DNA of 43,151 nt from Faecalibacterium sp. Its GTDB lineage: Bacteria > Bacillota > Clostridia > Oscillospirales > Ruminococcaceae. Within the stretch, counting starts at the first letter, position 1; each line of letters opens with the position of its first letter. Below the pieces are notes generated by a model, which made no database searches, was not told the DNA's origin, and saw nothing but the letters and a program-made list of their open reading frames with translations. Shown one piece after another: positions 1-38,157 of the stretch. The position numbers were made by a program, and so were the translations under genes. Location of the stretch: contig JARHYC010000018.1 of the NCBI GenBank assembly GCA_029264955.1, forward strand, positions 1 to 43,151, in the 5' to 3' direction.

Positions 1-330
1 CGTAAAATAGACAGTGACTGGAAGCGCATCCAGCGTCAGCGCAATGTCATCCAAGCTGCTTTAAATCAAGTGAAAAGCTCGGATCTTGTTACGTTGAACA
101 AGTTGGCTGATACCATTTTGCCCATGATTCAAACCAATCTGACCAAGAGTGAAATGACCAGTTTGTTGTTGGAGGTACCTGGCTTTATCTCCAGCGGTTT
201 ACAAATCGAACAAATGACTTTGCCCACCAAAGAAACCTGTTGGAACACGGTTGGTGTTGATGGACGAAAGATGATTGGCGTAGATTTTCCGGCGAATGCA
301 AAAATCCTGCACGAGTTTTTCTATAAATAG
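1..330 (+). CDS. LytR-CpsA-Psr (LCP) family protein, C-terminal part
   Basis: This is the 3' end of a gene that begins before the window. The frame is open from base 1, and the first residues read R-K-I-D-S-D-W-K-R-I-Q-R-Q-R. The D-W-x-R-I-x-R-Q-R pattern followed by a hydrophobic helix is typical of the end of the LCP domain. LCP proteins are membrane-anchored ligases that transfer undecaprenyl-linked teichoic acid or capsule polymers to peptidoglycan. About 109 residues are visible; the membrane segment and catalytic arginines lie outside the window. A GTG at 70 could be taken as a start, but reading continues upstream and no ribosome site supports it. A strong terminator follows the stop codon. 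Confidence 0.8.
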   Translation, partial: RKIDSDWKRIQRQRNVIQAALNQVKSSDLVTLNKLADTILPMIQTNLTKSEMTSLLLEVPGFISSGLQIEQMTLPTKETCWNTVGVDGRKMIGVDFPANAKILHEFFYK

Positions 331-357
331 AATATAGCCCTTTATTTTATGGGGATG

Positions 358-393
358 AAAAAAGCGGTGTGACCGAAGTCACACCGCTTTTTT
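358..393 (+). terminator. Rho-independent terminator after the LCP gene
   Basis: A perfect ten-base stem (GCGGTGTGAC with GTCACACCGC) with a CGAA loop is flanked by A and T runs. It lies 28 bases after the LCP stop codon and could work in both directions. Confidence 0.93.
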
Positions 394-863
394 CGTTCCC
401 ATAAAACGGTTGCTTGCCACGCTAAATCATGAAATACCATAGCCTATATGAATTGTCCATCGTCATACTGCATCGAAAAAACAAGACTTTGTTTTAAATT
501 ATATCCCAACGTTCTTTTCTGTTCTTAAAAAAAACTGCCACACACATTGCATAAATGACATTGACAAGAATCATTGTTTTTTCAACCGTCTCTATTTTTG
601 TCTTTCTCTGAACGACATTTTCCTTTTTTCATCATTTAAATTACGCAAAATATTCACTTCTTGATAACTTTGTGTCAATCGAATTGGAGAAAAAGTAGAA
701 CGTTATCCATTTGATATTTTTTTACGTATATGCCCTTGTATCTAGTCCTTTGTCAGGTGTACAATCTTTTTTAGAAAAATTTTGTCTTTTTGCACAATTT
801 TATTTCCCCACTATGCGCGCCACATAATTTTTGCATTGGAAGCGCAATACAACGGAGGGCTGC
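394..863. other. 470-base AT-rich intergenic region upstream of sipW
   Basis: No credible gene was found. The stretch is rich in A and T and ends with the sipW ribosome site (GGAGGG at about 854-859). The only promoter-like element I can point to is listed separately at 736-765. The long leader between that candidate and the start codon could hold regulatory sites of the fibre locus, but I recognise none. Confidence 0.5.
736..765 (+). promoter_or_regulatory. Candidate promoter for the sipW/TasA-like locus
   Basis: TTGTAT (736-741) and TACAAT (760-765) are separated by 18 bases, about 100 bases upstream of sipW. Both boxes differ from consensus, so this is only a candidate. Confidence 0.3.
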
Positions 864-1403
864 ATGAGCAAAGGAATCAAAAAAGTTTGGAATATTTTCA
901 CAAGTATCATCGTTGCACTTGCTGTACTGCTAGCAGTGCTCCTGGTAGGTGCCCGTTTCATCGGATTGCAAATGTTCACTGTTCTTTCCGGTTCGATGGA
1001 ACCATCTTACCCTACTGGTTCGTTGATTTATGTAAAACAGATTCCCACTGACAAAATTGATGTTGGTACTGTGATCACCTTTATGTTAGATGAAAATACC
1101 GTTGCAACACATCGTGTCGTAGCAGTTCTTCCCGATGAGGAAGACTCCAGTATTGTACGTTTTCGCACCAAGGGCGATGCCAACGAGGCAGAGGACGCAA
1201 ATCCGGTACATTGCAACAATGTAATTGGCACACCGGTATTCCATATCCCACAGCTGGGCTACTTTGCCTCATATTTGCAAACACCTACAGGGCGATATAC
1301 CGCAATTTGTGTAGGCGCTATTGTGTTGCTGCTATTGTTTTTACCAGATTTCTTTTCGGTGATGACCGCAAAGGAAAAAATTGCAAAGCATGAAAAGCGT
1401 TAA
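864..1403 (+). CDS. sipW: SipW-type signal peptidase I (family S26B)
   Basis: This 179-residue membrane protease cleaves signal peptides on the outer face of the membrane. An N-terminal membrane helix covers about residues 12-36, followed by the catalytic serine in S-G-S-M-E-P (Ser44). The general-base position is histidine in A-T-H-R-V-V (His83) rather than the lysine of ordinary bacterial enzymes. That Ser-His pair is the signature of the ER-type/SipW group. Aspartates near 105 and 111 fit the last conserved box, and a second membrane helix lies near residues 150-168. ATG864 is chosen because GGAGGG lies five bases upstream; the frame is open to an ATG at 831 that lacks a site. It is the first gene of the locus, directly before proteins with SipW-type signals, which are its probable substrates. 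Confidence 0.9.
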   Translation: MSKGIKKVWNIFTSIIVALAVLLAVLLVGARFIGLQMFTVLSGSMEPSYPTGSLIYVKQIPTDKIDVGTVITFMLDENTVATHRVVAVLPDEEDSSIVRFRTKGDANEAEDANPVHCNNVIGTPVFHIPQLGYFASYLQTPTGRYTAICVGAIVLLLLFLPDFFSVMTAKEKIAKHEKR

Positions 1404-1438
1404 GCCTTTTCCGGCAGAAGAATCCATGTGTATAAAAT

Positions 1439-1455
1439 AGGCGCGGGCCTTTTTT
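1439..1455 (+). terminator. Weak hairpin with T run between sipW and the first subunit
   Basis: A four-base stem (AGGC with GCCT), a four-base loop and a run of Ts resemble a very weak terminator or an RNA processing site. It might lower sipW relative to the subunit genes or stabilise the downstream message. The short stem makes this speculative. Confidence 0.25.
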
Positions 1456-1489
1456 ATAAATAACAAACATTTTTTAGGAGGAAGAACAA

Positions 1490-2104
1490 ATGAAATTGAA
1501 GAAGACTTTGACCGCTGTTGTTGCTGTGGCTCTGGTTGCAGCTGTTTCCGTCGCAGGTACTCTGGCATATCTGTCCAAGAGCACTGGCCCCGTCACCAAT
1601 ACCTTTACTGCTGGTAGCTTGGGCAAAAACATGGCGCTGGAACTGAAAGAAACTCCGGTACAGCAGGGTACTGATGGTCAATACACTTTAACTAGTGAAA
1701 CCCCCATAGCTCAGGGCCAGAAGTACGAAAATGTTCTGCCCGGAAGCACCAATGCAAAAGATCCCCATGTTAATGTTACTGGTTTGACTACCGATGCATA
1801 CCTGTTCGTTGAGGTTGTTAACAACGACCCCAACATCATCGCTGAAGTTGACTCCACCAACTGGACTGAAGTTCCGGGTGCTGTTGCCAAGACTGAGGGC
1901 GCAAAGGTCTACATGTACAAGGCTGACGGCAAGGTTGCAACCGGCACCGACCTGAATAAGGTTTATGTTCTGAAGAACAACCAGTTCAAGGTGAGTGATA
2001 AGTTGACTGGCGATGTGACCTTCCAGGATATCGTTGTTAAGTCTTACATCTGCCAGGCTGCAGGCTTTACCAATGCTGCTGATGCATGGGCTAAGGCATT
2101 CTAA
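1490..2104 (+). CDS. TasA/camelysin-like fibre subunit 1, SipW-type signal peptide
   Basis: A 204-residue secreted protein. The N terminus has two lysines, a hydrophobic stretch and A-G-T-L-A-Y-L-S near residues 22-29, the hallmark of SipW-processed precursors such as TasA. Then come N-T-F-T-A-G-S-L and a V-L-P-G-S motif, which recur in the sister genes of this locus. The family folds as a beta-sandwich whose subunits polymerise into biofilm fibres. It follows sipW by 86 bases and has a very strong ribosome site (AGGAGGAAG, 1476-1484). Codon choice looks strongly biased (many CTG, AAG, GGC, AAC, GTT) compared with the vWA gene downstream, suggesting high expression and a major shaft subunit. 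That role is inference. Confidence 0.82.
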   Translation: MKLKKTLTAVVAVALVAAVSVAGTLAYLSKSTGPVTNTFTAGSLGKNMALELKETPVQQGTDGQYTLTSETPIAQGQKYENVLPGSTNAKDPHVNVTGLTTDAYLFVEVVNNDPNIIAEVDSTNWTEVPGAVAKTEGAKVYMYKADGKVATGTDLNKVYVLKNNQFKVSDKLTGDVTFQDIVVKSYICQAAGFTNAADAWAKAF

Positions 2105-2155
2105 TTAAACAAAACCTACAGCCTACCCCGGTAGTTTACCGAAGGAGAATAACCG

Positions 2156-2914
2156 ATGAAAAAGAAACTTTTGGCAGTTGCACTGGTTGTTGCCATGCTG
2201 TCTGTCGTAGTTGTCAGCGGCTCGCTTGCTTACTTTACCGATACCGATAGAGAAACCAATGTGTTTACCGTGGGCAATGTGAACATCGACCTGCACGAAG
2301 CCAACAATGCAGATACCCCCGCCGTTGACGAGGATTATCATGAATGGCTTGGCCGTCAGGTTTTGATGCCCGGCGACTCCAACACCAACACCATTGCAAA
2401 GCGTGTTTACGTTGAGAATACTGGCGACAACGACGTATACGTTCGCGTACATATCGCTGTACCTACCATTCTGGATGACGCACAGCATGGTTTCGATGCA
2501 TCACAGGGTTTATTGCACCTCAGCTCTGACGCCAATTACCTTGGTAAGGGCTTGTGGAACTGGGGTCATGCACTTGCCACAACCTCTGGCGAGTATTTCA
2601 ACGTCAGCGACACTTGGAACCGCTATACTACTTCGATCGATGGTATCAGCTACAACGTCTACGTTGTAACGTATGAGACCGCTTTGCGGAAAGGCGCTCT
2701 GACCAAGGACGCCATGTACCAGGTTTACCTGGACAGCAAAACGACCACAGACGATATCACCAAGGCAAACGCAGTTCTCGGTGAAAAATGGAACGTCCTC
2801 GTATTTGCAGAGGGCGCCCAGGCTGATGGCTTTACTGATGCGTTTACCGCTTTGAATGCTTCTTTTGGCGTTCCGAGTGCTGATAATAATCCCTGGGTTG
2901 CAACCGCCCCCTGA
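2156..2914 (+). CDS. TasA/camelysin-like fibre subunit 2, SipW-type signal peptide
   Basis: A 252-residue secreted protein with a lysine-rich start, a hydrophobic core and S-G-S-L-A-Y-F-T-D-T-D near residues 21-31, an almost canonical SipW-type motif. The mature start contains N-V-F-T-V-G-N-V-N-I-D-L, then M-P-G-D-S and V-E-N-T-G-D-N-D-V-Y-V-R-V. These match the order of motifs in TasA-like proteins and in its neighbours. Ribosome site GAAGGAGA lies at 2141-2148. It is 51 bases after subunit 1, so the two are likely co-transcribed. Hairpins follow the gene and may limit transcription into the second half of the locus. It could be a second shaft subunit or a minor adaptor. Confidence 0.85.
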   Translation: MKKKLLAVALVVAMLSVVVVSGSLAYFTDTDRETNVFTVGNVNIDLHEANNADTPAVDEDYHEWLGRQVLMPGDSNTNTIAKRVYVENTGDNDVYVRVHIAVPTILDDAQHGFDASQGLLHLSSDANYLGKGLWNWGHALATTSGEYFNVSDTWNRYTTSIDGISYNVYVVTYETALRKGALTKDAMYQVYLDSKTTTDDITKANAVLGEKWNVLVFAEGAQADGFTDAFTALNASFGVPSADNNPWVATAP

Positions 2915-2932
2915 CATCTAACATAACAAAGT

Positions 2933-2978
2933 GCAACCCAGCCGGACCCCAAAATCAGGGATTTTCTGGCTGGGTTGC
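2933..2978 (+). terminator. Hairpin after TasA-like subunit 2 (possible partial terminator)
   Basis: Perfect 11-base arms (GCAACCCAGCC and GGCTGGGTTGC) enclose a 24-base loop. No T run follows, so termination may be incomplete. The left arm can also pair with TGGGTTGC at 2894-2901 inside the end of the gene, giving an alternative fold. Confidence 0.55.
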
Positions 2979-2990
2979 GTCTGTTAACCC

Positions 2991-3094
2991 CGCCAAGATT
3001 CTCTAAAATATATCAAATATGTTTTAGAGAACCTTTTATGGCGAGGTTACAGAAGAGTACCCGAACATTCGGATTTTCTTCTGTGCCTTCGCCA
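2991..3094 (+). repeat. Two nested, mutually exclusive palindromes
   Basis: Hairpin A pairs CGCCA (2991-2995) with TGGCG (3039-3043) around an inner ten-base stem TTCTCTAAAA/TTTTAGAGAA. Hairpin B pairs TGGCGAGGTTACAGAAGA (3039-3056) with 3077-3094 at 16 of 18 positions, around an inner CCGAA/TTCGG stem. TGGCG can only serve one of them at a time. This may be an extragenic palindromic repeat or a transcription switch. Confidence 0.6.
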
Positions 3095-3201
3095 TATATC
3101 TTCTAACGATGGATTTGAAGTGCAGTTTTCACACTTTCAAATATAACCCGGCAAAAGAGAGCAGTGTGTTTCAAGTTCCTGCTCTACGGAAAGGAGCGAC
3201 T

Positions 3202-3774
3202 ATGAAAAAGAGAAGGGTCTTTATACTTGCAGTGATGCTGATCTGCCTTGCACTGGCAGCCACCGGCACACTGGCATATTTCAATGCCGATAAGCAAGTA
3301 CATAATGTTATTACCAGTGGTAACATTGCAATCGATCTGATTGAACAGAAACAGTTAGAGGACGGAAGCCTTGTCCCCTATACCGATCCTGTCGATGTGA
3401 TGCCTGGTACCGACGTGAGCAAAATCGTCACCGTGCAGAACAACGGTGTCGGTGATGCCTGGATTCGTGTTTGTGTTGATTCTGCCGTGACGTTCAAAAC
3501 GACTACGGGCGCTGCGCCCCAGGAGAGTGACATCGCATTGGATTTCGACACTGAAAACTGGATTCTGAAAGATGGCTATTACTACTACACCAAGCCTGTA
3601 ACTGCCAATGGCGTGACCACACCGCTTTTCACAACCGTCAGCTTCAGCCCCAAGATGGGTAACATCTATCAGGGCAGCAAGCTGGATATTGTGATTCAGG
3701 CACAAGGCGTTCAGGTTGCCAATAATGGCAGCACTGTACTGGAAGCAGCTGGCTGGCCCAGCAGCAATTCTTGA
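3202..3774 (+). CDS. TasA/camelysin-like fibre subunit 3, SipW-type signal peptide
   Basis: A 190-residue secreted protein. Residues 1-31 form a K-K-R-R start, a hydrophobic core and A-T-G-T-L-A-Y-F-N, a SipW-type cleavage motif. Downstream are V-M-P-G-T-D and V-Q-N-N-G-x-G-D-A-W-I-R-V, equivalent to motifs in the other subunits, and K-D-G-Y-Y-Y-Y, which is shared with the subunit at 6935. ATG3202 is chosen because GGAAAGGAG ends seven bases upstream; an earlier in-frame ATG at 3109 would add 31 residues before the signal peptide and has no site. The gene opens the second half of the locus, after the hairpin cluster, and is followed 19 bases later by the vWA adhesin. Confidence 0.85.
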   Translation: MKKRRVFILAVMLICLALAATGTLAYFNADKQVHNVITSGNIAIDLIEQKQLEDGSLVPYTDPVDVMPGTDVSKIVTVQNNGVGDAWIRVCVDSAVTFKTTTGAAPQESDIALDFDTENWILKDGYYYYTKPVTANGVTTPLFTTVSFSPKMGNIYQGSKLDIVIQAQGVQVANNGSTVLEAAGWPSSNS

Positions 3775-3793
3775 GAAAGGAGGAGCATAACCC

Positions 3794-6700
3794 GTGAAAA
3801 GAAAATTTATTGCGCTTGCATTGTGCATGGCTTTGGTAATGTCGATTGCTGTTCCCAGCACCCTTGCAATGGGTATCACAAGTGACTCCTCTGCCTATGA
3901 TATGACAGTGGGTACCGATTTACCGACCGAATCCACCACACCAGATTCCACACTTCCCACTGAAGAATCCCCCGAATCTATTCCTGCTGCAAGCGCAGAG
4001 CCTACCACAACGGAAACGCCTGTTGCAAGCGCAGAACCTACCATAACAGAAATGCCTGCTGCAAGCGCAGAACCCGATGAAGGCATGGTACTATCTTCCG
4101 AACAGGTAAACGCAATTTATAACGCTTTGATGGCTGCATCGACTCTGGAAGAAATGGAAAGTATCCTTACTCAATTGAGCGAAGCTGAGTTGGATGCATT
4201 GGCTACTAACCTAACCACAGAGCAACTGAATGAAATTGATTATAAAACCAATTCTTTTTCGCAACCGAAAGATTTTCCCAGCAATTATTCTGCAGTAAAC
4301 TTTACCAACGCTGCACCTTTTCTGCCTCCAGTAGATGGTTCTACCAATAGAAAAGATGATTACTTTTTTCAGTCACCAGAAAATCCGGATAACGGTATCG
4401 AAACAACCAAAACTGTTTCTAGCTCAGATAGCAACGGAACCTACACGCTGTCGCTAGAAGCTTGGGTAACTGGTGCCAAAACCATCACCGAACAAACAAA
4501 ACAAATCCCGACAGATATCATTCTCGTCTTGGATCAATCCGGATCTATGGAACAGCCTTTTCCTACTAAGGATTATGTAGCTGTCATTGATACGCAAAAC
4601 AGTAACCTATACAGTATTCACAGATCTCTCTATGTCAAATTAAAGAATGGTAATTTTGCAAAAGTTACCGTTGACCGCAGCTTTTCTATCCAGCAATTCC
4701 ACTATGTATACACATACTCCTATAAAGATGAATATGGCCAAACCGTGAAGGCAGAAAGTCACTCTGAAGCCTCCAACGGCCCTAACTGGGACTTTTATAC
4801 CAATCACCCCACTCGTATGATTGCATTGCAAAGTGCTGTTGCACAATTTGCAAATAGTGTAGCAAAAAAGGCCTTAGGGCCCGACAAACAAGCGGATACC
4901 TCTGACGATGTAAATCATCGAATCGCCATGGTAGGCTTTGGCTGCAGTAAAACACACCGATACCATTATGAAAATACCGAACTTTTTATTGGTGATCAAT
5001 CCTATCGATACGACGAGCTTACAGATGCTTTATACCAATCCGCCTTCCAAAATATGAATACAACAGCCGGCGTTCATAACATCGAACAATCCGTTGAGCA
5101 GCTGACTGCCGATGGTGCTACCTATGTTGATCTTGGTGTTGCTATCGGCAACACCATTTTCGCACAAAATGAGATTCCTGCCGGTGAAAAACGTAATCGC
5201 GTTATGATTGTTTTCACCGATGGTGAACCGGGTTATGATGGCTATGAGCATGATGTTGCCGCAAGTGCTATAGAACAAGCTAACATCACCAAGACGGCAC
5301 ATCTTGCCACCGTGTATTCTGTGGGTATTTTTGATGGTGCAAATGCAAACGATCCTGGTTCTTCCAACGATCACGCACCAATCAAAGATAAATGCAACTG
5401 GTTTATGCAAAATCTGTCCAGTAATAATGGCAAAGTGCAGGACCCCAGCTACTATCTCTCTGCAGCAGATTCAGACGCATTAAACAATATTTTTGAAACC
5501 ATTTCTGATAATATTGAAAGTGGCGGTTCTTCTATTCAACTGGAATCTCAATCCGTCATGAAAGATGTCATCTCTGACTATTTCCAGTTGCCCCAGAACG
5601 TCAATGAAACCGATATTAAAGTATACACTGCAGATTACATCGGAGAAAACACATTTAGCGACAAAACCCTGCTCCCAACTCCCACCGTTTCCATTTCTCA
5701 AGATCGCAAAACTATTTCTGTTACCAATTTCAATTATTCTGAAAACTGGGTAGGTACAGTACGCCAAAACGGAAAAACAAGCTATCGTGGTAAAAAGCTA
5801 ATTGTAGAAATTCCGATTGCTGTTCGCGATGGTTTCCTTGGTGGTAATCAAGTTCCCACAAATGGGGCCGCTTCGGGAATTTATGAAAATGCAGCTTCCA
5901 AACAAGCTCTCGAGCATTTCCAGATTCCTACTACCAATGTTGCAATCCCGCAGTTTTTGATTACCGCACAGGATAAGAATATGTACCTAAATGGGAAAGC
6001 TACCGATTTGCAGCTTTTGCATGGATCGCAGGTACAGTGCGGTGCAAAAACGCTGGATTTCAGCCAGCCAAATTTTGGTCTGGAAGCGTGGCAAACTAAA
6101 TTTATCGATATCTCGGTTCCCTCTGTTGTAAGTCGTAACTACGATGGAAAGAAAGATGGTACTTATACGGTTTCGGTCACTGTTAATCCGCGCAATAGTG
6201 GTACTGAAACGCCTCGTATCTATTCTGGCACAGGAACGATTACTGTGTTTCATCCTGAAATCGAATACAAGGACAGCACCATTTATTATGGAGAAACCGC
6301 TAATTATGCAGCGCAGAATACCCCTAAAAACAATGTTGCATGGACACATAATGGCACAGTTGATTCCAATGTTACCATGACTGGTGCAAAACCTGAGCTT
6401 CAGTACACTTATAATCCCGAAGAAGGCGCTTTCCAACATGATACCGACGTTTCGATTTCTGTTAGGATTGGAGCTGAAGATGTTACACCATATGTAACTT
6501 TTATCAACAACAGCAAAACCCATCAATCGGCATCCGATCACCAGTTTACTGTTTATGTAAAAACATGCAGTCTGACTGTTCAGAAAAACGCAAATGCACC
6601 AGGTGTCTTTAAATTCCATATTCACAACGACGCCAACACCGTCGATATGGATGTGGTAATTGAAGTAACTGCCAACTCCATCCATCAATCACAGATCGTT

Positions 6701-6916
6701 ACGATCAACGGTCTGCCTAAAGGCCAGTATACCGTTACAGAAGATACGAATTGGAGCTGGAATTTTACTACATCAGATAAGCCTCAAACGATAAGCCTTG
6801 ATAAAAACACACCTCATGCTACGGTTACATTCACCAATACGCTGCGCAACAAATGGCTCAATGACAGCGTTTGTGTCAAGAATTTTCCCGGCATGTCTAC
6901 TACCGGTAAATCGTAA
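3794..6916 (+). CDS. Large secreted vWA-domain adhesin, probable fibre tip
   Basis: A 1040-residue secreted protein starting at GTG3794 behind AAAGGAGGAG (3776-3785). It has an N-terminal signal peptide, then a Thr/Pro/Glu-rich stretch with 12-residue repeats (about 64-96). A vWA domain covers about 240-590: the metal-site motif is D247-Q-S249-G-S251, with a further acidic loop at F-T-D476-G. Ig-like beta-rich segments follow, and a C-terminal SpaA-like region (about 920-1020) contains G-L-P-K-G-Q-Y-T-V-T-E-D. vWA domains bind host ligands through a divalent metal, as in tip adhesins of Gram-positive pili. No LPxTG signal or C-terminal membrane helix is present, so attachment must be indirect. 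Its codon use is more relaxed and AT-rich than that of subunits 1 and 2, fitting a low-copy protein. Confidence 0.85.
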   Translation: MKRKFIALALCMALVMSIAVPSTLAMGITSDSSAYDMTVGTDLPTESTTPDSTLPTEESPESIPAASAEPTTTETPVASAEPTITEMPAASAEPDEGMVLSSEQVNAIYNALMAASTLEEMESILTQLSEAELDALATNLTTEQLNEIDYKTNSFSQPKDFPSNYSAVNFTNAAPFLPPVDGSTNRKDDYFFQSPENPDNGIETTKTVSSSDSNGTYTLSLEAWVTGAKTITEQTKQIPTDIILVLDQSGSMEQPFPTKDYVAVIDTQNSNLYSIHRSLYVKLKNGNFAKVTVDRSFSIQQFHYVYTYSYKDEYGQTVKAESHSEASNGPNWDFYTNHPTRMIALQSAVAQFANSVAKKALGPDKQADTSDDVNHRIAMVGFGCSKTHRYHYENTELFIGDQSYRYDELTDALYQSAFQNMNTTAGVHNIEQSVEQLTADGATYVDLGVAIGNTIFAQNEIPAGEKRNRVMIVFTDGEPGYDGYEHDVAASAIEQANITKTAHLATVYSVGIFDGANANDPGSSNDHAPIKDKCNWFMQNLSSNNGKVQDPSYYLSAADSDALNNIFETISDNIESGGSSIQLESQSVMKDVISDYFQLPQNVNETDIKVYTADYIGENTFSDKTLLPTPTVSISQDRKTISVTNFNYSENWVGTVRQNGKTSYRGKKLIVEIPIAVRDGFLGGNQVPTNGAASGIYENAASKQALEHFQIPTTNVAIPQFLITAQDKNMYLNGKATDLQLLHGSQVQCGAKTLDFSQPNFGLEAWQTKFIDISVPSVVSRNYDGKKDGTYTVSVTVNPRNSGTETPRIYSGTGTITVFHPEIEYKDSTIYYGETANYAAQNTPKNNVAWTHNGTVDSNVTMTGAKPELQYTYNPEEGAFQHDTDVSISVRIGAEDVTPYVTFINNSKTHQSASDHQFTVYVKTCSLTVQKNANAPGVFKFHIHNDANTVDMDVVIEVTANSIHQSQIVTINGLPKGQYTVTEDTNWSWNFTTSDKPQTISLDKNTPHATVTFTNTLRNKWLNDSVCVKNFPGMSTTGKS
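3983..4080 (+). repeat. 36-base in-frame tandem repeat in the vWA adhesin
   Basis: About 2.6 copies of a 36-base unit (3983-4018, 4019-4054 and a partial third) encode P-[AV]-A-S-A-E-P-T-x-T-E-x. Copies differ at only a few bases. It forms a flexible stalk after the signal peptide and could vary in length between strains. Confidence 0.8.
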
Positions 6917-6934
6917 CGAAGGGGGCTGAGATTT

Positions 6935-7513
6935 ATGTACACAAGAAAACATTCAGCGCCCCAAAAATGGCGCATGAACAAATTTGCATCGTTAGCCATT
7001 GCAGTGGCCCTAGTGATGCTGGTATCCATCGGTGGTACCTGGGCATGGCGCACTGCACAAAGCAACCCTGTGCACAATACATTTACTGCTGGTACAGCAG
7101 ATATCAACATCGATGAAGTAATCAACCACAGCACAAAACAGGCAGTTACTATAAAAAACAATGGCACTGCACCTGTATATGTCCGAGTGGCAGTTGTAAT
7201 CAACTGCCGGGACACAGAAGGAAATATCATCTTTGGTAAAGCACCGGAGTTTGTATTAAATGGGGCAAACTGGACCAAGTTGGATGATGGTTATTACTAT
7301 TATAACGGTATCCTTGCACCAAGTACGTCCACTCAAGATCTTCTGAATGCACCGTTCTCCTTAGTTGATGGTGATAAACAATATGAGATGGATGTCCTCG
7401 CAGAAGCGATTCAGGCTGGCGGTGCAACGCCTGATGGAATCCCTGCTGTTGAAGATGCCTGGCACGCAAAATACACAGACGGTACTTGGACACTTGTGCC
7501 GCCGCAGGCGTAA
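6935..7513 (+). CDS. TasA/camelysin-like fibre subunit 4, SipW-type signal peptide
   Basis: A 192-residue secreted protein. After a hydrophilic start and M-N-K-F comes a hydrophobic stretch ending I-G-G-T-W-A-W near residues 32-38, close to the G-G-G-T-W-A of TasA itself. The mature part has H-N-T-F-T-A-G-T, I-K-N-N-G-T-A-P-V-Y-V-R-V and D-D-G-Y-Y-Y-Y, resembling subunit 3. The expected M-P-G motif is missing. AAGGGGG (6919-6925) supports ATG6935; an internal ATG at 6974 would give a more usual signal length but has a weaker context. The gene lies between the vWA adhesin and the wall-anchored protein, so a linker or minor subunit role is plausible. Confidence 0.8.
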   Translation: MYTRKHSAPQKWRMNKFASLAIAVALVMLVSIGGTWAWRTAQSNPVHNTFTAGTADINIDEVINHSTKQAVTIKNNGTAPVYVRVAVVINCRDTEGNIIFGKAPEFVLNGANWTKLDDGYYYYNGILAPSTSTQDLLNAPFSLVDGDKQYEMDVLAEAIQAGGATPDGIPAVEDAWHAKYTDGTWTLVPPQA

Positions 7514-7525
7514 GGAGGTACGGAT

Positions 7526-8224
7526 ATGAAAAAATCACTGAAAACACTTTCCGTGCTGGTTATGACTGTACTGCTCAGCGTCAATGTAACTGCATTTGCT
7601 GCAGATGCCAGCATCGTTTACAAAGGCAGCGGAAGTTCTGAACCGTTTGTAACGCTTCCCGGTGATGATTTGTTTGGCGGTTTCAAAAATGTAATGCCTG
7701 GTGATGTACGCACGGAAGACATTACCGTCAAAAACAAGTTTGATGGCTCTGACGAAGTCTTCATTTATATGCAGGCTGTTCCCCACAAGGTCAACAACCC
7801 GCTCAGCCCTGAAGTTGCAGCAAAAGAGGATCTGGACTCTATGAAGGATTTCCTCCATCAGATGAAACTGACTGTAACACAGGATGGCAAGGTTCTTTCG
7901 CAGGATACTTCAGAAAAGCCGGCCGGCTTAGCAGAAAGTATTCTGGTTGGACAATTTAAGGGCAAGGGTTCCAGTGAGATTCAGGTCACGCTGTCTGTTC
8001 CCATTGAGATGGGTAATGAATATGCAGACCGCATCGGTGAAGTTGACTGGGTTTTCTACGCAAGCGAAATCAATAATCCCCCAGTTACTCCTAATACTCC
8101 TAACAATTCCAATAACTCCCATTCGCCTAAGACTGGTGATACAACCGACACAGCACTTTACCTGATGCTTATGTTGTTCAGCGCTGCTTCTGTAGTGGTT
8201 CTGATTAAGGAACGTAAATCCTAA
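7526..8224 (+). CDS. Sortase-anchored TasA-like protein, probable fibre base
   Basis: A 232-residue surface protein. It has an ordinary signal peptide ending A-F-A-A near residue 26, not a SipW-type one. The mature domain carries N-V-M-P-G-D and D-I-T-V-K-N with a beta-sandwich pattern like the fibre subunits. An Asn/Pro-rich linker leads to a sorting signal: S-P-K-T-G at 200-204, a hydrophobic helix and a basic K-E-R-K-S tail. Sortase would link it to peptidoglycan. No sortase gene is in the locus, so a housekeeping enzyme must serve. The ribosome site AAGGAGG (7512-7518) overlaps the previous stop codon. As the last gene and the only wall-anchored product, it is the best candidate for attaching the fibre to the cell wall. 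Confidence 0.85.
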   Translation: MKKSLKTLSVLVMTVLLSVNVTAFAADASIVYKGSGSSEPFVTLPGDDLFGGFKNVMPGDVRTEDITVKNKFDGSDEVFIYMQAVPHKVNNPLSPEVAAKEDLDSMKDFLHQMKLTVTQDGKVLSQDTSEKPAGLAESILVGQFKGKGSSEIQVTLSVPIEMGNEYADRIGEVDWVFYASEINNPPVTPNTPNNSNNSHSPKTGDTTDTALYLMLMLFSAASVVVLIKERKS

Positions 8225-8230
8225 TGTAAC

Positions 8231-8272
8231 AAAAACGGCACAGTCAATCTAACAATTGGCTGTGCCGTTTTT
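8231..8272 (+). terminator. Terminator at the end of the fibre locus
   Basis: Stem AACGGCACAG with CTGTGCCGTT, flanked by A and T runs. It ends the plus-strand locus and can also serve the converging Nudix gene. Confidence 0.93.
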
Positions 8273-8314
8273 ATTTGTGCTTCTAGTAATGCAAACAAAT
8301 GCAAAATCTGCTCT

Positions 8315-8707
8315 TTATTTCGCCTCATACTCTGCCTGCAACTTTTGTAATATCACTACATCTGCAGGGCAGAACTCGTATTCTGGGATTTCCTTTGGTG
8401 TGATCCAACGAATATCATTATGTTCCAGCATCTGTGGAACACCTTCCATAATCTGTGCATGAAACAGGGTCAAGTGTACTGTTAAATCCGGATAGGTGTG
8501 CGTCACTTCCATAAAGACTTCACCAACTGATACTGTGATATTCAGTTCTTCCTGACACTCCCGAATCAGTGCCTGTGGCTTTGTTTCGCCCGACTCGACC
8601 TTGCCCCCTACGAACTCCCACAAAAGCCCTCTGGCCTTGTGTTTTGGCCTTTGGCAAATCATAAAGCGCTCTCGATTCCAAATTAGTGCGGCTACCACTT
8701 CTGTCAT
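8315..8707 (-). CDS. Nudix hydrolase, MutT-like (8-oxo-dGTP diphosphatase type)
   Basis: A 130-residue cytoplasmic enzyme. The Nudix box is complete: G-G-K-V-E-S-G-E-T, seven residues, then R-E-C-Q-E-E-L. The N-terminal strand T-E-V-V-A-A-L-I and the W-E-F-x-G-G-K-V-E region match small MutT-type proteins that hydrolyse oxidised dGTP. Exact substrate specificity cannot be read from sequence. ATG8707 is preferred because AAAGGAGA lies seven bases before it; an in-frame ATG at 8734 would start inside the terminator of the upstream gene. The gene begins 27 bases after that terminator, so read-through from the reductase gene may express it. Confidence 0.88.
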   Translation of the reverse strand: MTEVVAALIWNRERFMICQRPKHKARGLLWEFVGGKVESGETKPQALIRECQEELNITVSVGEVFMEVTHTYPDLTVHLTLFHAQIMEGVPQMLEHNDIRWITPKEIPEYEFCPADVVILQKLQAEYEAK

Positions 8708-8733
8708 GGGCAGATCTCCTTTCCATCCAGACA

Positions 8734-8770
8734 TAAAAAGGCGACCCCGGCAAAATGTCGGAGTCGCCTT
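8734..8770 (-). terminator. Terminator after the flavocytochrome-type reductase
   Basis: On the minus strand, AAGGCGAC and GTCGCCTT form the stem, continued by a short C/G stem, and a run of Ts follows. It lies 25 bases beyond the reductase stop codon. Confidence 0.9.
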
Positions 8771-8794
8771 CTGCTTTACTGTAATATTCCGTAA

Positions 8795-10681
8795 TCAGCC
8801 TACATAAGCACTTGCGCTCTCGCCAGCAATGTGACCAAAGACCGTAAAGTCTGCCACAGCGTTGCCGCCCAGACGGTTTGCACCGTGGACGCCGCCAGCT
8901 ACTTCGCCTGCTGCAAACAGGCCCGGAATCACGTTACCCTCAGCATTCAGGACCTCGGTCTTAGCATTGATTGCCAAGCCGCCCATGGTGTGATGAACAC
9001 CAGCGGTAACCTTGATTGCATAGTAAGGAGCCTTGTTCAGCTGCTTGGTGAAGCTAGTACGACCAAAATCGGGGTCATTCTTCTGCTCCACATAACTGTT
9101 CCAATTCTGCATCGTTTCTGCAAGTGCAGCCGGATCAACTTCGATTGCTGCGGCCAACTCCTCAACAGTTTCACCAGTGAAGGTAAATCCCTTCTTGATA
9201 TATCCCTGGATAACAGCGGAATTGTCGACCATCTCCTGGTCAACAACCAGCCAGCTGTAGCTGCCAGGCTGTGCGATTTCTGCTGCGGAAACCACGTCGC
9301 GTGTGCTAACTTCATCAATGAAGCGCTTACCCTCAGAGTTAACCAAGATTGCACCATCGCCACGCAACCCCTCAGTAATCAGAGCTGCAGAATCAAACTG
9401 AACAGTGGGATGAATCTGGATCTGATCCATATCCACGGTATCTGCACCGATAGCAGTTGCCATCTCAATACCCTGACCCATTGCACCAGGAGCGTTGGTG
9501 GACATGAACCCCTTCAGGTTCGGTGCATACTTAACGACCATTTCGGAATTATAACCGAAACCGCCCGTTGCCAGAACCACAGCCTTTGCATTCACAGTAA
9601 TAGTCTCGCCGTTCTTGCCAGTAGCAACAACGCCGGTAACTTTACCGTCAGCCGTCAGGATTTCGTTTGCGGTAGTTTCCATCAGGATCTCAATGCCGCG
9701 AGAAGTACAGTTCTCTTGCAACAGAGGAATCATGTAAGAGCCAACCGCAACTGTCTTGCCCTCGTCGTTGACAGGCTTGTGAATACGCTTGACAGAAGCA
9801 CCACCAAATGCACCAACCTGCTTCAAATCGATATTGATGGACTTCAGCCACTCGATAGCCGGAGCAGAATTCTCGCACAGAGCATCTACCAGAGCGGGAT
9901 TGTTCACACCCTTACCACCAACCAGAGTATCCAGCTTCATCAGTTCGACAGAGTCAAAGTAACCCTGCGGGTTCTTCTGATACTCTGCCCACTGCTGTGC
10001 CACGGTTTCAGCTAGGCTGGTGATCACTTCGTTATCTGCGTAATCTTTCTTAGCCTTTTCCAACGTCTTTTCAACGCCAGCTGCTTCACCGAATTCGTTT
10101 TCGTCCTGGTTCGGGGTGTGAGCCGCATTCATACCGCCAGTTGCCAGCTTAGAGTTGCCACCAACCAGTGCCTGGCTCTCCAGAATAATGACCTTCTTGC
10201 CAGCATCTGCTGCAGTAATGGCCGAAACCATACCTGCGCCACCTGCACCGACAACAACGACATCTGCATCGTAAACAACATCCTCTGCATCAGCAGAACT
10301 TGCTGCACCACTCTTCAGATCAGCAACAGTCAGACCAGCATTTTCCAGAGCAGCAGCTGCTGCTTCCAGAATTGCCTTAGAGGAAATCGTTGCACCGCTC
10401 ATGGTGTCCACTTCAATGGAGTTCTGCTGCATCATTGCTGCAGGCAACTTTTCCAGAGCGACAGAACCAACGCCCTCAGTCTCATCGGCGCCTTCAGCCG
10501 TTGCGGCAGTAATTACACCGCCATCAACAGTCAACGTAACGGTAATGTCACCGCCAAAGCCTTTTGCTGTAGCGGTACCGGTAACAGCGGCTGCACCAGC
10601 ATCCTTGCTGGAAGCGCCGCAGGCTGCCAGCGACAGTACCATTGTCAGAGCCATTAGGATTGCAATTACGCGATTTTTCAT
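8795..10681 (-). CDS. Secreted flavinylated FAD-dependent reductase (fumarate reductase/UrdA type)
   Basis: A 628-residue lipoprotein. Residues 1-21 are a signal with lipobox L-A-A-C21. An FMN-binding domain (about 33-112) carries D-T-M-S-G-A-T98, the site where ApbE enzymes attach FMN to threonine. An FAD domain begins near residue 135 with V-V-V-G-A-G-G-A-G and ends with G-V-H-H-T-M-G-G and R-L-G-G-N-A, typical of flavocytochrome c, fumarate and urocanate reductases. Such extracellular enzymes pass electrons from FMN through FAD to a small unsaturated acceptor. The actual acceptor is unknown. No haem motifs are seen. The start has AGGAGA upstream. It lies 61 bases after the related FMN lipoprotein and is probably co-transcribed with it. 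Confidence 0.88.
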   Translation of the reverse strand: MKNRVIAILMALTMVLSLAACGASSKDAGAAAVTGTATAKGFGGDITVTLTVDGGVITAATAEGADETEGVGSVALEKLPAAMMQQNSIEVDTMSGATISSKAILEAAAAALENAGLTVADLKSGAASSADAEDVVYDADVVVVGAGGAGMVSAITAADAGKKVIILESQALVGGNSKLATGGMNAAHTPNQDENEFGEAAGVEKTLEKAKKDYADNEVITSLAETVAQQWAEYQKNPQGYFDSVELMKLDTLVGGKGVNNPALVDALCENSAPAIEWLKSINIDLKQVGAFGGASVKRIHKPVNDEGKTVAVGSYMIPLLQENCTSRGIEILMETTANEILTADGKVTGVVATGKNGETITVNAKAVVLATGGFGYNSEMVVKYAPNLKGFMSTNAPGAMGQGIEMATAIGADTVDMDQIQIHPTVQFDSAALITEGLRGDGAILVNSEGKRFIDEVSTRDVVSAAEIAQPGSYSWLVVDQEMVDNSAVIQGYIKKGFTFTGETVEELAAAIEVDPAALAETMQNWNSYVEQKNDPDFGRTSFTKQLNKAPYYAIKVTAGVHHTMGGLAINAKTEVLNAEGNVIPGLFAAGEVAGGVHGANRLGGNAVADFTVFGHIAGESASAYVG

Positions 10682-10742: not shown

Positions 10743-11111
10743 TTACTGAGCGTTCTTCAGAGCCTCTGCAGCAGCGGTCTTGATAGCCTCAGAAGTGATG
10801 GTTGCACCAGCATGTGCATCAACCTCAACGCTGTTCTTTTCAATCATTGCCTTGGGCAGTTCTTCCAGAGCAACGGAGCCAACACCCTCGGTCTCGTCTG
10901 CGCCTTCAGCAACAACATTAGTGATCTTGTCGCCTTCCTTGGTAACGGTAACCTTAACTTCACCGCCGAAGCCCTGAGCGGTAGCAGTGCCGGTAACAGC
11001 AGCTGCGCCAGCGCCACCGTTAGCCTCGCTGGAGTTGTTGGAAGAGCCGCAAGCAGCCAGAGCCATGACCATAGACAGAGCCATCAGAATTGCAATAATA
11101 CGCTTGTTCAT
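10743..11111 (-). CDS. Small FMN-binding domain lipoprotein
   Basis: A 122-residue lipoprotein with lipobox L-A-A-C21 and one FMN-binding domain. D98-A-H-A-G-A-T104 matches the ApbE flavinylation motif D-x-x-[SA]-G-A-T. It is clearly homologous to the first 112 residues of the adjacent reductase; both share a V-T-G-T-A-T-A-x-G-F-G-G segment and an A-D-E-T-E-G-V-G-S-V-A-L-E segment, so one arose by duplication of the other. It may be an electron shuttle on the outer membrane face that feeds the reductase. ATG11111 is chosen for AAAGGAG ten bases upstream; a longer frame to 11186 has no ribosome site and would hide the lipobox. Confidence 0.87.
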   Translation of the reverse strand: MNKRIIAILMALSMVMALAACGSSNNSSEANGGAGAAAVTGTATAQGFGGEVKVTVTKEGDKITNVVAEGADETEGVGSVALEELPKAMIEKNSVEVDAHAGATITSEAIKTAAAEALKNAQ

Positions 11112-11443
11112 TGTTATAATCTCCTTTGTTACGTTAAAAATCGTGTGTACCTTCTGCACAGATGAAACCGCTATCAACAACTTCATCTATGCGTTTATGC
11201 ATTATATCACAGACATTGCTAAAAATCTACCCACCCTGTCTCCCAGAATGATAAAAACAAATCGAAGCGCCCATTTTTCCACAAATGCGCTATTTTTATA
11301 AAATATTCTGCAAGTTTTTTATATCTTTTGACTATGCATTTCTGCATTTCTCTTTTATTTCCTACTACTGGCTTTCTCTAATTTGTGGTATACTCAATTT
11401 ATCAATTATTTTCCTGTCTGTACAAACCACAAAGGAGCTTGAT
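11112..11443. promoter_or_regulatory. 332-base divergent intergenic region with two outward promoters
   Basis: No gene is credible here. On the minus strand an extended -10 element (TGATATAAT, TATAAT at 11201-11206) lies about 90 bases before the FMN lipoprotein. On the plus strand TGGTATACT (TATACT at 11389-11394) lies 50 bases before the lipoprotein at 11444. Neither has a good -35 box. The remainder is AT-rich. Confidence 0.55.
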
Positions 11444-31333: not shown

Positions 31334-32407
31334 TCATCGCATGATGCTGCCGATTCCTCCCATCATAAAATCTCTGCGCACTTCCGCCTTATCTTTCTTT
31401 TTCAAGCTGGATTTTTTCTTGTGATTGCTACCCATTTCGCCGATGTAAAGGTCGAACTTTTCCTTTTTGGTCAAATCCTTTGACGGGAACACCGGCCGTT
31501 TTGTTTCCTTCTCTTTTTTCTTTGGCAGAGACTTCTTATACGCCAGCCGTTCCCGATTCAATGCCATCTGTTCGCGCCACTTTTGCTGTGCATTAGCCTG
31601 TTCGATTTCCCACCGTCGTGTTGATTCCGCCTGTCGTGCTGCCGCAGCTTCCTGCTCAGCCTGCCACTGACGAATACTTTCCTCAAACTTTTTCACTGCC
31701 AACTCATGTGCAAGTTCATCCTGTCTTCGCTGGAACTCCTGCTGATCCTGGCTGGCATAATAATCCCGCATATCCGTCAGTGATTCCAGCAAATCCTGAT
31801 ATTCGCCATAATCTTTTTTGTATGCACTGTCCGCCATGTCCATATAGCGGTCCAAGCCTTTATAGTAACTATCTACCTGATCCTTATATGCATCGTGTGC
31901 CGATTTTTCCACACTCATCAGCTGATCCAGTGCATCATGCATTCCCTTACCTTCGCTGTCATAGCGATCCAGTGCCATCTGATACAATTCCGGAATTTTA
32001 TCATTCAGCTGATTCAAATATCCCTGATATGCCTGGCTTCCCGCAGCCATCGCAAAGGACGAACCATAGCCACCTGTCAGCGCAGCTGCACCTGCCATAC
32101 TATCCTGCATGGCAAGTTTACCCTGATGTACATACTGATTTTTGTAGGTTTTGTACATTGGATCTGTAGAAAAATCATAGGAAAATCCTTCCCGATTCAA
32201 AATCTGGTCCAGTAAGCCATCGATTTTCTGCTGATAGCCCGACGTATACTCGCCAGGCTTAGACTGCATATACTGCTCCAGCTGGTTTTGTGCATTCTGT
32301 ACCGCTTGGCTTGCCTGATATCCGGAACTTGCTTCCTGCAAAGCCTGTTCAGCGCTTGTCTTATCGGTTACCCCGTACAGAAGGTCTTCTTTCCTTCTTG
32401 CTGCCAT
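31334..32407 (-). CDS. Phage structural protein of unknown function, coiled-coil rich
   Basis: A 357-residue protein. The middle has a segment rich in Gly, Ala and Tyr (A-L-T-G-G-Y-G-S-S-F-A) followed by long helices full of Gln, Glu and Arg. That layout recurs in uncharacterised Firmicute phage proteins; an internal or ejected virion protein is one possibility for a short-tailed phage. The C terminus is very basic. AAGGAGG lies upstream of ATG32407. It is the leftmost gene of the phage module, and no lysis gene follows it. Confidence 0.6.
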   Translation of the reverse strand: MAARRKEDLLYGVTDKTSAEQALQEASSGYQASQAVQNAQNQLEQYMQSKPGEYTSGYQQKIDGLLDQILNREGFSYDFSTDPMYKTYKNQYVHQGKLAMQDSMAGAAALTGGYGSSFAMAAGSQAYQGYLNQLNDKIPELYQMALDRYDSEGKGMHDALDQLMSVEKSAHDAYKDQVDSYYKGLDRYMDMADSAYKKDYGEYQDLLESLTDMRDYYASQDQQEFQRRQDELAHELAVKKFEESIRQWQAEQEAAAARQAESTRRWEIEQANAQQKWREQMALNRERLAYKKSLPKKKEKETKRPVFPSKDLTKKEKFDLYIGEMGSNHKKKSSLKKKDKAEVRRDFMMGGIGSIMR

Positions 32408-32420
32408 ACTGCCTCCTTTT

Positions 32421-33923
32421 TTATGCAATGCCTACCGTATAGACTTCTGTATCCTGCAATCCATTTTGCGTCGGAACAACATAGATTCCTCCATGTTCCG
32501 TTACATATCCCGTACACGGAACGCCATTTTGTACCGCAAATACGATTGGCAAATACTGTGCGTTGAAATACCCCACCGGAAAGTCTGCCACATGGTAATG
32601 TACACCCGCATATGGCATCCCACCGCCATCACTCAGCACACCTGCCAGCCTCGTCAGTACCAACCTACCGTACTTCACTGCCTGATTGTTCGTCACATCT
32701 GTCAGGCTACTCTGACAGGGAATGTGTGCCGTTTCCACCGAATTCAAATCCTTCAGCACCGTCGCCACATCTGTTTGTCCCAGCAGCATCCTGCCTGTAA
32801 CTGCAAGATCACCACCGACCGACACATCCCGGCGAAACACACTGTCCAAACCGACATCAAACAAATTGCTTTTTTCTGCGGCCTTTCCCACCGCAATACC
32901 CGTACCACCTTTTAAGAAATGCAGCAAATACACCGTGCTGGAAATATAGTCAAAATAATCGATTACATGGAATGCATCCGAAACCGTATATTTCACATCA
33001 TAGGTTGCACCATCTTCCAAATTAGCTTCCAGTGCTTTTCCTGGAATCGGTTCGTGCGGACCGCCATATCCAGTATCTGTTACTTTTTTCCAGCGGCAGA
33101 TAACGCGCGGAACATTAAGCCCGTTCAAATCACTGAACTGCATATTAAATTTCGGCATAAATGCAGTACCATTTTCCGCCGGGGTTCCATCCGGATTGCA
33201 TCTAAAACTAGAAATTTGAGAAATACTCGGTGGCTGATAGGGCTGTACATCCAGCAGAAGATCTGCTGTTGCAATGCGCAGCCGACTATCTGTTACTGTA
33301 ACAGGAATCGTTACTGCACCGCTTTGTGCCAATATTAGATCTGCCTGTGGCTGATCCTGATTTTGTCCGCTGCCAAATCTCCAGCTGATGATTTTGCTTC
33401 CATACGTTCCGGCAGCCTCTTTTGCCGCAATGCGCGCCACGGACTTGCCCTGCACCCAAATATTCCAGTCCTGCGGCACCACGCCATCCGCTGCCTGAAC
33501 AGCGATTGCCCCCACCGTGGGCAATAAATCTTCCCGCACACCACCGGGCATCTGCGCCGCATATCCCGTATAGTCATGTTCAAAGACCAAGGTTCCTGCG
33601 TAACCGGTATAATGCGCCGTCATGGTTGCCTGAAATAAACCGCAGGCTCCTTCATGCGCCAGATCACCAATGTTGGTCGTAAAATCATTCGCCCATTCCA
33701 TCGGCGGAACAAACGGAATTGATACGCTTGTTTTTCCGTTCGGCATCTGCACACCTATCCAGGTTTTGCTGTATTTTTTTGCGGTACTATACAGCGTTAC
33801 ATCGAAACTGTACTGAACTGTCGAACTCGCTGGTTCATCTGTGGTACACACCAAATGCAGCGCACGGCTGCCGGTAATTTCCATATACGTTTCCTGAAAG
33901 GACAGGTTAAATCGTAATGCCAT
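32421..33923 (-). CDS. Phage tail fibre/appendage protein (DUF859-like)
   Basis: A 500-residue beta-rich protein. The pattern of repeated domains, with V-P-P-M-E-W-A-N-D-F, W-R-F-G-S-G-Q and a closing G-T-G-I-A-V-G-K-A-A-E-K-S-N-L-F-D-V, resembles putative minor tail or host-recognition proteins of streptococcal and related phages. Its terminal part probably forms a trimeric fibre. GGAGGG precedes ATG33923; the longer frame to 34052 overlaps the upstream gene and lacks a site. Start and the previous stop are one base apart. Confidence 0.7.
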   Translation of the reverse strand: MALRFNLSFQETYMEITGSRALHLVCTTDEPASSTVQYSFDVTLYSTAKKYSKTWIGVQMPNGKTSVSIPFVPPMEWANDFTTNIGDLAHEGACGLFQATMTAHYTGYAGTLVFEHDYTGYAAQMPGGVREDLLPTVGAIAVQAADGVVPQDWNIWVQGKSVARIAAKEAAGTYGSKIISWRFGSGQNQDQPQADLILAQSGAVTIPVTVTDSRLRIATADLLLDVQPYQPPSISQISSFRCNPDGTPAENGTAFMPKFNMQFSDLNGLNVPRVICRWKKVTDTGYGGPHEPIPGKALEANLEDGATYDVKYTVSDAFHVIDYFDYISSTVYLLHFLKGGTGIAVGKAAEKSNLFDVGLDSVFRRDVSVGGDLAVTGRMLLGQTDVATVLKDLNSVETAHIPCQSSLTDVTNNQAVKYGRLVLTRLAGVLSDGGGMPYAGVHYHVADFPVGYFNAQYLPIVFAVQNGVPCTGYVTEHGGIYVVPTQNGLQDTEVYTVGIA

Positions 33924-33924
33924 A

Positions 33925-36420: not shown

Positions 36421-36436
36421 TTTGTTTTTCCTCCTT

Positions 36437-38134: not shown

Positions 38135-38157
38135 AACAATCTCCTTTTTTCTGTTCC

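Follow-up and report, generated by a model that had tools for sequence, protein, structure and literature searches.

The seven-gene operon and its relatives

The window analysed here is the whole 43,151-nucleotide contig JARHYC010000018.1 (C31 in our numbering) of a Faecalibacterium sp. with a genome of 1.88 Mb that is 99.6% complete. Seven genes at 864-8224, all on the + strand, encode a SipW-type signal peptidase, three TasA-like proteins (Tas1-3), a large vWA adhesin, a fourth TasA-like protein (Tas4) and a wall-anchored protein termed Base (Table 1). As the initial annotation had noted, they are collinear and closely spaced, with gaps of 86, 51, 287, 19, 18 and 12 bases (the third is 194 if an earlier Tas3 start is used). 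This grouping is more than chance, since the set is preserved, often with its order, in relatives from other genomes. The operon probably builds a wall-anchored fibre of TasA-like subunits that plug together, with a swappable tip, adhesive or enzymatic, joined to it by a short tail.

Table 1. Features of the operon and their positions in the window
Feature	Position	Strand	Basis
SipW-type signal peptidase	864..1403	+	TIGR02228 99.6 bits (cut-off 51.85)
Tas1, presumed shaft subunit	1490..2104	+	AlphaFold2 (AF2) model, position-specific best hits
Tas2, presumed shaft subunit, canonical donor motif YFTDTDRETNVF	2156..2914	+	TIGR04088 33.6 bits
Intergenic RNA element, three strong stem-loops, between shaft and tip/base genes	2915..3201	+	fold z -8.07
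Tas3, presumed base-side adaptor	3202..3774	+	TIGR04088 28.6 bits, best-hit position
vWA adhesin, 1040 residues, GTG start	3794..6916	+	PF00092 24.4 bits (cut-off 23.8)
CnaB/SpaA-like C-terminal adhesin domain	6572..6844	+	DUF5979 and SpaA matches, both below cut-off
Donor-strand-like C-terminal adhesin tail, from WLNDSVCVKNFPG	6854..6913	+	donor profile, alignment
Tas4, presumed tip adaptor, without proline box	6935..7513	+	TIGR04088 24.0 bits, best-hit position
Base: TasA-like domain, Sec-type signal by eye, proline box FKNVMPGD	7526..8224	+	anchor models, structure match
SPKTG sorting signal, hydrophobic stretch, charged tail	8123..8221	+	TIGR01167 16.4 bits (cut-off 15.9)
Terminator-like site 3' of Base	8231-8272	+	18-pair stem, then T-rich tail

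The first gene product belongs to the archaeal-type signal peptidases I through its TIGR02228 match; with the Bacillus SipW equivalog model NF046067 it scores 115.1 bits, under the cut-off of 190. At the other end of the operon, the terminator-like site has the longest stem of those listed for positions 300-8800, where a scan of both strands gave 11 sites compared with 8.4 in shuffles. A promoter could not be placed, the scan having returned 10 sites against 15.8 in shuffles.

Four SipW-type signals had been proposed for the locus. Those of Tas2, Tas3 and Tas4 exceed the cut-off of the signal model TIGR04088 (19 bits), while that of Tas1 is visible by eye and reaches 11.4 bits, so that three of the four hold firmly. 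Tas1 is related by phmmer to Tas4 (1e-07) and Tas2 (5e-05). The BsaA family model TIGR04090 matched Tas2, Tas3 and Tas4 partially at 30-48 bits (cut-off 60), and camelysin PF12389 gave 22.2, 18.2 and 18.5 bits, respectively (cut-off 22.5); searches with these two models found no match in Tas1 or Base. Tas2-4 are likely members of the TasA family, short of the formal cut-offs, and Tas1 and Base would join them through homology, again below those cut-offs. Support from fold comparison is moderate. The AF2 model of Tas1 (predicted local distance difference test score, 86.9) is made of beta strands, with residues 30-48 lacking secondary structure; a fold search with it returned only generic beta sandwiches, TasA not being among the matches listed, and 7ueg_A ranked 43rd in Foldseek. 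Base matched the TasA structure at middling Z. A sequence search of the PDB found no useful relative for Tas2, the adhesin, or the alignments of Tas and Base; its La-protein rows were weak and were taken as chance.

After the SipW-type signal, the TasA-like subunits begin with a donor-like stretch of the form [YW]-F-[TS]-D-x5-N-x-F. Among 174 Tas proteins with a signal motif, drawn from 259 with complete 5' ends, the offset from the aromatic residue to the Asn was 9 in 100 and 10 in 54 (together 154/174). In B. subtilis TasA the donor strand comprises residues 28-38, with contacts through F29, I32 and F39 (PMC9674648; this and the other papers are cited here from part of their text). A donor profile of 12 columns was built from 73 non-redundant Tas N termini only; Tas2, which is among the sequences behind it, scores 31.6.

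The initial annotation had proposed a search for co-occurrence, and the gene set does recur in many Clostridia, often in the same order. A Base search of 197 genomes of the family found a match at E 0.01 or better in 36, many of them at the anchor only, and a Base profile matched 24 of 391 genomes of the class at 1e-5; the genome of the window is counted in each. Base had no match in the two genomes of the same genus within the family sample, and the operon is therefore an accessory locus. Searching named genomes with eight Base sequences yielded 156 confirmed stretches, and the analysis retained the 80 best loci; contig ends truncate many of these, and in 15 no open reading frame (ORF) was assigned to Base, owing to the ORF caller or threshold. 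A Tas gene was found in 71 of these 80 and a large protein with a conserved C terminus in 34. In 17 the set was complete, with SipW, a large protein, Tas and Base, and each of the 17 was arranged as SipW - one to five Tas - large protein - Tas - Base. Among them is the locus of Merdimmobilis hominis An559 (L093), with a strict form of the tail described below. In Hespellia stercorisuis DSM 15480 (L077), Tas and Tas4 accompany a short protein whose tail is deviant, and no SipW was called in the 20.6-kb locus. At least five of 100 loci were seen twice (L044/L069, L045/L062, L046/L061, L047/L079 and L049/L093); the numbers of distinct large proteins (43) and non-redundant tails (39) used below are corrected for this, while the 49-protein, best-hit, Tas4-linkage and locus-kind counts include the duplicates.

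G+C content is 0.42-0.45 in three of the four 2-kb blocks over the operon (0.485 at 2001-4000) compared with 0.465-0.521 past 8 kb, perhaps a sign of foreign origin. A Base search of plasmids gave no match. SipW matches on Enterococcus and Lacticaseibacillus plasmids (3 of 25 plasmid records were examined) were not counted, as they came with no donor-like tail. On E. faecium and L. paracasei plasmids (L194, 5565-9085; L196, 3756-9111) a SipW-TasA pair lies near a GH53 or GH92 protein, with no anchored protein annotated beside it.

The adhesin tail and the position-specific subunits

The vWA domain of the presumed adhesin within the operon, proposed from the sequence at the outset, was upheld by a Pfam match just over the cut-off. 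The protein has a Sec-type signal by eye and a motif of the metal-ion-dependent adhesion site type, DQSGSM, at residues 247-252. Neither it nor any of Tas1-4 matched an anchor model. In its CnaB-like domain, K931, E983 and N1015 are invariant in 12 aligned large proteins. Lys, Glu and Asn are the residues expected of an intramolecular isopeptide bond, and we regard these three as candidates for such a bond.

The same alignment of 12 has W1021, L1022 and N1030 invariant in the tail that follows. This tail is the best donor-profile window of the entire window adhesin (score 4.5); it fails the strict pattern, having N-F-P instead of N-x-F, and passes the relaxed one. By eye, 14 of 22 large ORFs, which include some unrelated neighbours, end, behind a CnaB-like domain, in a tail that takes or approaches the form [WY]-[LF]-x-[DG]-x5-N-x-[FYW]; in L059 and L060 a tail-like stretch is internal, well before the C-terminal end.

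The likeness was then measured in 49 large proteins, which had been picked with a profile of nine C termini and were compared with a profile of Tas N termini only. The best donor-profile window fell in the last 40 residues in 28 of the 49, compared with 28 of 310 control ORFs of at least 350 residues, called mechanically and perhaps not all genes (Fisher p 1.2e-13). The strict motif occurred there in 30/43 distinct proteins, against 5/310 controls and 17/1142 internal 40-mers; for the relaxed motif the corresponding counts were 40/43, 18/310 and 111/1142. The 39 non-redundant tails had a mean profile score of 3.92, whereas shuffled tails averaged -7.19 (best of 1000, -4.97), and none of 2000 column-permuted profiles reached the observed mean.

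A held-out test avoids the selection of these 49 proteins by their C termini. A Tas4 profile at 1e-10 gave matches in 33/391 class and 37/197 family genomes, other Tas types included, and 18 loci were taken from its strong matches; L193 was taken as the same as L063, leaving 17. A large protein with a relaxed tail lay nearby in 13 of the 17, and in eight of these the tail was strict. Additionally, a locus of Acetoanaerobium noterae DSL2, found by SipW search alone, has the order large protein - SipW - Tas - Tas - LPRTG protein, and its large protein carries WFYDDDEEKNYF 22 residues before the C-terminal end (score 16.1).

Donor-strand function predicts a donor at one end or the other, one per protein. 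Indeed, none of 38 distinct proteins of the tailed type with an intact 5' end has a SipW motif. Another 22 large proteins combine a SipW-type signal with an N-terminal donor motif, and among these the strict tail occurs in none and the relaxed tail in three. Classed by the kind of large protein, 100 loci comprised 49 tailed, 13 N-donor, 0 with both and 38 with neither, the N-donor count being a lower bound since proteins with a called start far upstream escape the pattern.

These 13 sister loci (L082, L085, L088, L091, L097, L099, L105, L106, L111, L117, L121, L131 and L135) encode N-donor large proteins of 472-1982 residues with a SipW-type signal near Base, and six of them have two SipW genes.

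The heads of the tailed proteins are varied. Among nine relatives, vWA exceeded its cut-off in eight and was lacking in L098; one of the eight, L062, also has the tip-pilin domain GBS104-like_Ig (26.2 bits, cut-off 26.0). Of seven other relatives, five have Listeria-Bacteroides repeats over the cut-off, one of them with BNR as well (L065), L073 has GH20, and L067 has DUF7601 and DUF5979. As judged from these domains, the head is swappable over a constant C terminus.

The subunits beside the large protein are also specific to their place. In loci with a large protein (window rows excluded, duplicate contigs kept), the Tas directly before it had Tas3 as its best hit in 29/34 cases, the Tas directly after it had Tas4 in 35/38, and earlier Tas proteins, in the shaft position, had Tas1 or Tas2 in 37/45. 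Since best hits are specific to position, the four Tas subunits are not copies that could stand in for one another.

The protomer interface of TasA is best conserved at a 'proline box' around P62 that contacts A28 and F29 (PMC10151520). In our alignment its proline is kept in 39/39 shaft subunits and 26/30 Tas3 proteins, and the column is a gap in 36/36 Tas4 proteins. Base has PG in the matching stretch in 71 of 72 cases, with P58, G59 and D60 invariant in 55 aligned. The loss in Tas4 rests on the alignment column, because PG as such is still present within mature residues 15-85 of 18 of 35 post-adhesin Tas proteins; in those 18 the PG is mainly that of N-x-F-x-PG just past the donor motif, with a few elsewhere (L043, L065), and two of the PG-bearing rows (L053, L058) are not of the Tas4 type.

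Tas4 also travels with the tailed protein, being present in 46/49 loci with a large tailed protein (training sequences among the 46) compared with 6/51 without one. Of those six, L064 and L074 proved to encode a strict-tailed protein that is shorter or had been hidden, L077 holds the protein with a deviant tail, and L123 and L134 are weak cases. Tas3 is spread differently, occurring in 45/51 loci without a large protein and 35/49 with one. In two genomes (L055 and L056) a Tas is fused to Base in one chain, and its best Tas hit is Tas3. The simplest reading of these sequences is that Tas4 would receive the adhesin tail, in which there is no free N terminus for the box, and that Tas3 would be the partner of Base. 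The two fusions (L055, 7806-9344; L056, 3807-5579) have an SPKTG anchor and neighbours that look like leucine-rich-repeat proteins by eye.

Base itself lacks the donor motif. The strict motif was found in the first 90 residues of 0/80 Base proteins compared with 104/220 Tas proteins, and a donor-profile score of at least 5 in 1/80 compared with 151/220. A sortase-type anchor, suggested earlier for the last gene, was borne out by TIGR01167; with the srtB_target model Base scores 17.6 bits, under the cut-off of 18.15. Its model has a helix at 209-231, and an LPXTG-like signal, a hydrophobic stretch and a charged tail are all present, as in sortase substrates. The genome has six sortase matches, all on other contigs: four match class B (one over the cut-off), one class C and one, weakly, class D. 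SrtB of C. difficile cleaves SPKTG, PPKTG, SPSTG and SPQTG peptides and not LPETG (PMC4155245).

The intergenic element after tas2 contains stem-loops at about 2933-2978, 2999-3031 and 3037-3097, and none of 200 shuffles folded as strongly. It was rejected as an intrinsic terminator, as it has no T run and no + strand terminator-like site was listed there. Of 15 equivalent gaps of 60-400 bases, the window's included, 14 (all but that of L045) contain a hairpin between -21 and -37 kcal/mol, while no hairpin beyond -16 kcal/mol occurs in six gaps that separate shaft genes. Five other gaps (two in L052, two in L058 and one in L068) also contain hairpins of -20 or stronger, and the gap comparison used crude shuffles. 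Rfam gave no family at gathering score over 300-8400; a SodB_thermometer match (27.8 of 98 bits) was taken as chance. In C. perfringens a terminator with read-through is predicted after bsaA (PMC7395162). The present element may attenuate expression by RNA processing or stabilisation, and would keep shaft subunits in excess over the tip and base.

A possible polar fibre and the alternatives

The results presented above suggest a model in which SipW would cleave Tas1-4 and free an N-terminal strand ([YW]F[TS]D...N.F), which would plug, as in TasA, into the groove of the subunit that follows. The vWA adhesin would be exported by the ordinary route and act as a donor only, its C-terminal tail imitating a donor strand and filling the free groove at the start of the fibre. 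Tas4, without a proline box, would be the dedicated adaptor that holds this tail; Tas1 and Tas2 would form the shaft, kept in excess by the stem-loops after tas2, and Tas3 would join the shaft to Base. With a TasA-like domain and a proline box, Base would be acceptor-only; because it has no donor motif, it can only end the chain opposite the donor-only protein. A sortase, probably of class B and acting on SPKTG, would fix Base to the wall, anchoring being its sole part. The order would thus run from the adhesin tail through Tas4, the Tas1/2 shaft, Tas3 and Base to the cell wall. On the sequence evidence, we lean with some confidence towards such a polar fibre of adhesin tip, Tas4 adaptor, Tas1/2 shaft, Tas3 and anchored Base, assembled by donor-strand complementation. 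The sequence statistics bear on the gene set and its order, the tail and its lack of overlap with SipW signals, the best hits by position, Tas4 and its lost proline box, and the hairpin; insertion of the strand, subunit order, anchoring, adhesion and control of stoichiometry are inferred from them.

Several observations weigh against this model. In 21 of the 49 large proteins a better donor-profile window lies elsewhere in the protein, and 17 of the 39 non-redundant tails do not outscore every internal stretch. Four held-out loci (L184, L190, L191 and L192) have no large protein with a relaxed tail, L184 having two variant tails with a non-aromatic first residue. Finally, L095 is a true exception to the linkage of Tas4 with a tailed protein. 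That locus (880-8809) has nine consecutive Tas genes ahead of Base, one of them Tas4-like, and no tailed protein was found in it.

One alternative is that only Tas1-4 polymerise, as a biofilm matrix fibre of the TasA/BsaA type, and that the vWA and anchored proteins are co-expressed with it without being built in. BsaA of C. perfringens does polymerise without BsaB, BsaC or SrtB (PMC7395162), and in 22 of the 80 loci SipW, Tas and Base occur with no tailed protein called, some calls having been missed. However, the tail has a donor motif and does not overlap with SipW signals, Tas4 travels with the tailed protein, and Base resembles TasA and is fused to a Tas in two genomes. We consider this alternative unlikely, at something like one chance in a handful.

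Somewhat less likely still is that the tail is another docking or export signal, such as a ligand that binds the wall or Base, and that its donor likeness is a convergence of short aromatic/Asn motifs. The motif is indeed short, most tails begin W-L-[DNS]-[GD] and not Y-F-T-D, and some have a spacing of 10. Against convergence, no permuted profile reached the observed score, several tails are near the Tas form (L054, YFTDTDIVNNQF), and large proteins bear the motif at one end or the other, with no locus having both kinds.

A sortase-polymerised pilus, with the Tas proteins as accessories and the vWA protein covalently joined, is very improbable. The GBS104-like_Ig domain of L062, the CnaB-like domain and the class C sortase elsewhere in the genome would fit it. 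However, neither a sorting signal on the shaft proteins nor a pilin sortase was found in the locus, and the class C sortase adjoins its own LPXTG proteins on another contig. The hybrid of TasA fibre and anchored pilus put forward in the initial annotation survives in its tip adhesin and wall base, which belong to our best reading, and not in sortase polymerisation, since anchor models match Base alone and the contig has no sortase match. Likewise the adhesin, which had been compared to a sortase-pilus part, ends in a donor-strand-like tail and has no sorting signal. The class C sortase belongs to a separate sortase-pilus-like locus of the same genome (L141, G000:C29, 2-3893), with LPSTG and LPQTG proteins.

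A reversed layout, with the adhesin near the wall as a TapA-like initiator and Base as only an occasional anchor, is barely credible given that Base carries the wall anchor and, for want of a donor motif, must lie at the opposite end from a donor-only protein, even though TapA has been proposed to initiate the filament and fix it close to the cell (PMC9674648) and no result of this analysis indicates the direction of growth.

The best reading is that the locus functions as a TasA-like donor-strand fibre and is laid out as a pilus with a tip and an anchor. If so, Clostridia would possess a pilus distinct from both the sortase and the type IV kinds, its tip exchangeable and its base in the wall; this would help to explain why there are several SipW substrates per locus, and the short tail would predict which proteins are displayed. 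TasA fibres are known as matrix fibres, and the descriptions compared here, each available in part, mention no adhesive tip or sortase-anchored base. The balance tips slightly towards a distinct class of Gram-positive pilus, in which assembly is by donor strand and not by sortase, any large protein becomes the tip through a C-terminal strand that fits Tas4, and an acceptor-only end is tied to the wall, giving Clostridia a modular display with tips from vWA to BNR or GH20.

Known systems and other features of the window

TapA-SipW-TasA of B. subtilis shares with the locus a SipW, a TasA-like subunit, an N-terminal donor motif and, if the model holds, a donor-only chain starter (PMC9674648, PMC10151520). 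In contrast, the donor-only protein here would be a large multidomain adhesin that donates a C-terminal strand and has no SipW signal, and there are several specialised subunits and a wall-anchored TasA-like base. TapA is present only at the filament start (PMC10151520), and by analogy the adhesin tail could play its donor-only starter part from the C terminus. No TapA was noted at the locus, where no search aimed at it was made; this is unremarkable, as TapA is not conserved even within Bacillus (PMC10151520).

The sipW-bsaABCRSD operon of C. perfringens likewise has SipW first, a BsaA subunit, secreted accessory proteins, srtB nearby and a predicted terminator with read-through after the main subunit (PMC7395162). 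In the part of its description available, no vWA protein, BsaA sorting signal or donor tail is named; it is set apart by description only, and BsaB, BsaC or BsaD could match parts of the present system. The claim of a new architecture is tempered accordingly: the operon is an accessory locus of many Clostridia, and this relative has been partly studied (PMC7395162). The SipW-TasA-CalY-CapP system of B. cereus is similar in its two TasA-like subunits, sortase-independent fibres and wall-associated assembly factor (PMC13082335). That factor, CapP, has DUF4047 and repeats, and the available text describes no vWA domain, sorting signal or C-terminal donor tail (PMC13082335).

The locus differs from sortase pili in that no sorting signals were found on its shaft or tip and no sortase within it. 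Sortase pili of the GBS104/RrgA type have a vWA tip with a CnaB-like stalk and an anchored base pilin. In chaperone-usher pili, donor strands join tip adhesin, adaptors, shaft and anchor, and the tip is the acceptor-only end. Here, in contrast, no chaperone or usher was seen, the families are unrelated, and the tip would be donor-only. TasA has itself been compared with chaperone-usher pili (PMC9674648, PMC10151520). Beyond the papers cited, no description of a C-terminal donor tail or of this operon was found among the titles and abstract starts listed from the open-licence literature.

Elsewhere in the window, the - strand at 31334-42633 carries phage structural genes. PHROGs named a role for five of seven proteins (terminase large subunit, portal, major head, internal virion and tail protein), and the prophage part had no near match among 50,697 phage records. 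Closer to the operon, the - strand at 8795-10681 encodes a flavin adenine dinucleotide (FAD) protein of the flavocytochrome c type with a flavin mononucleotide (FMN)-binding domain. Next to it, at 10743-11186 on the - strand, lies a gene for a second, small protein, the N-terminal half of which reads as similar.

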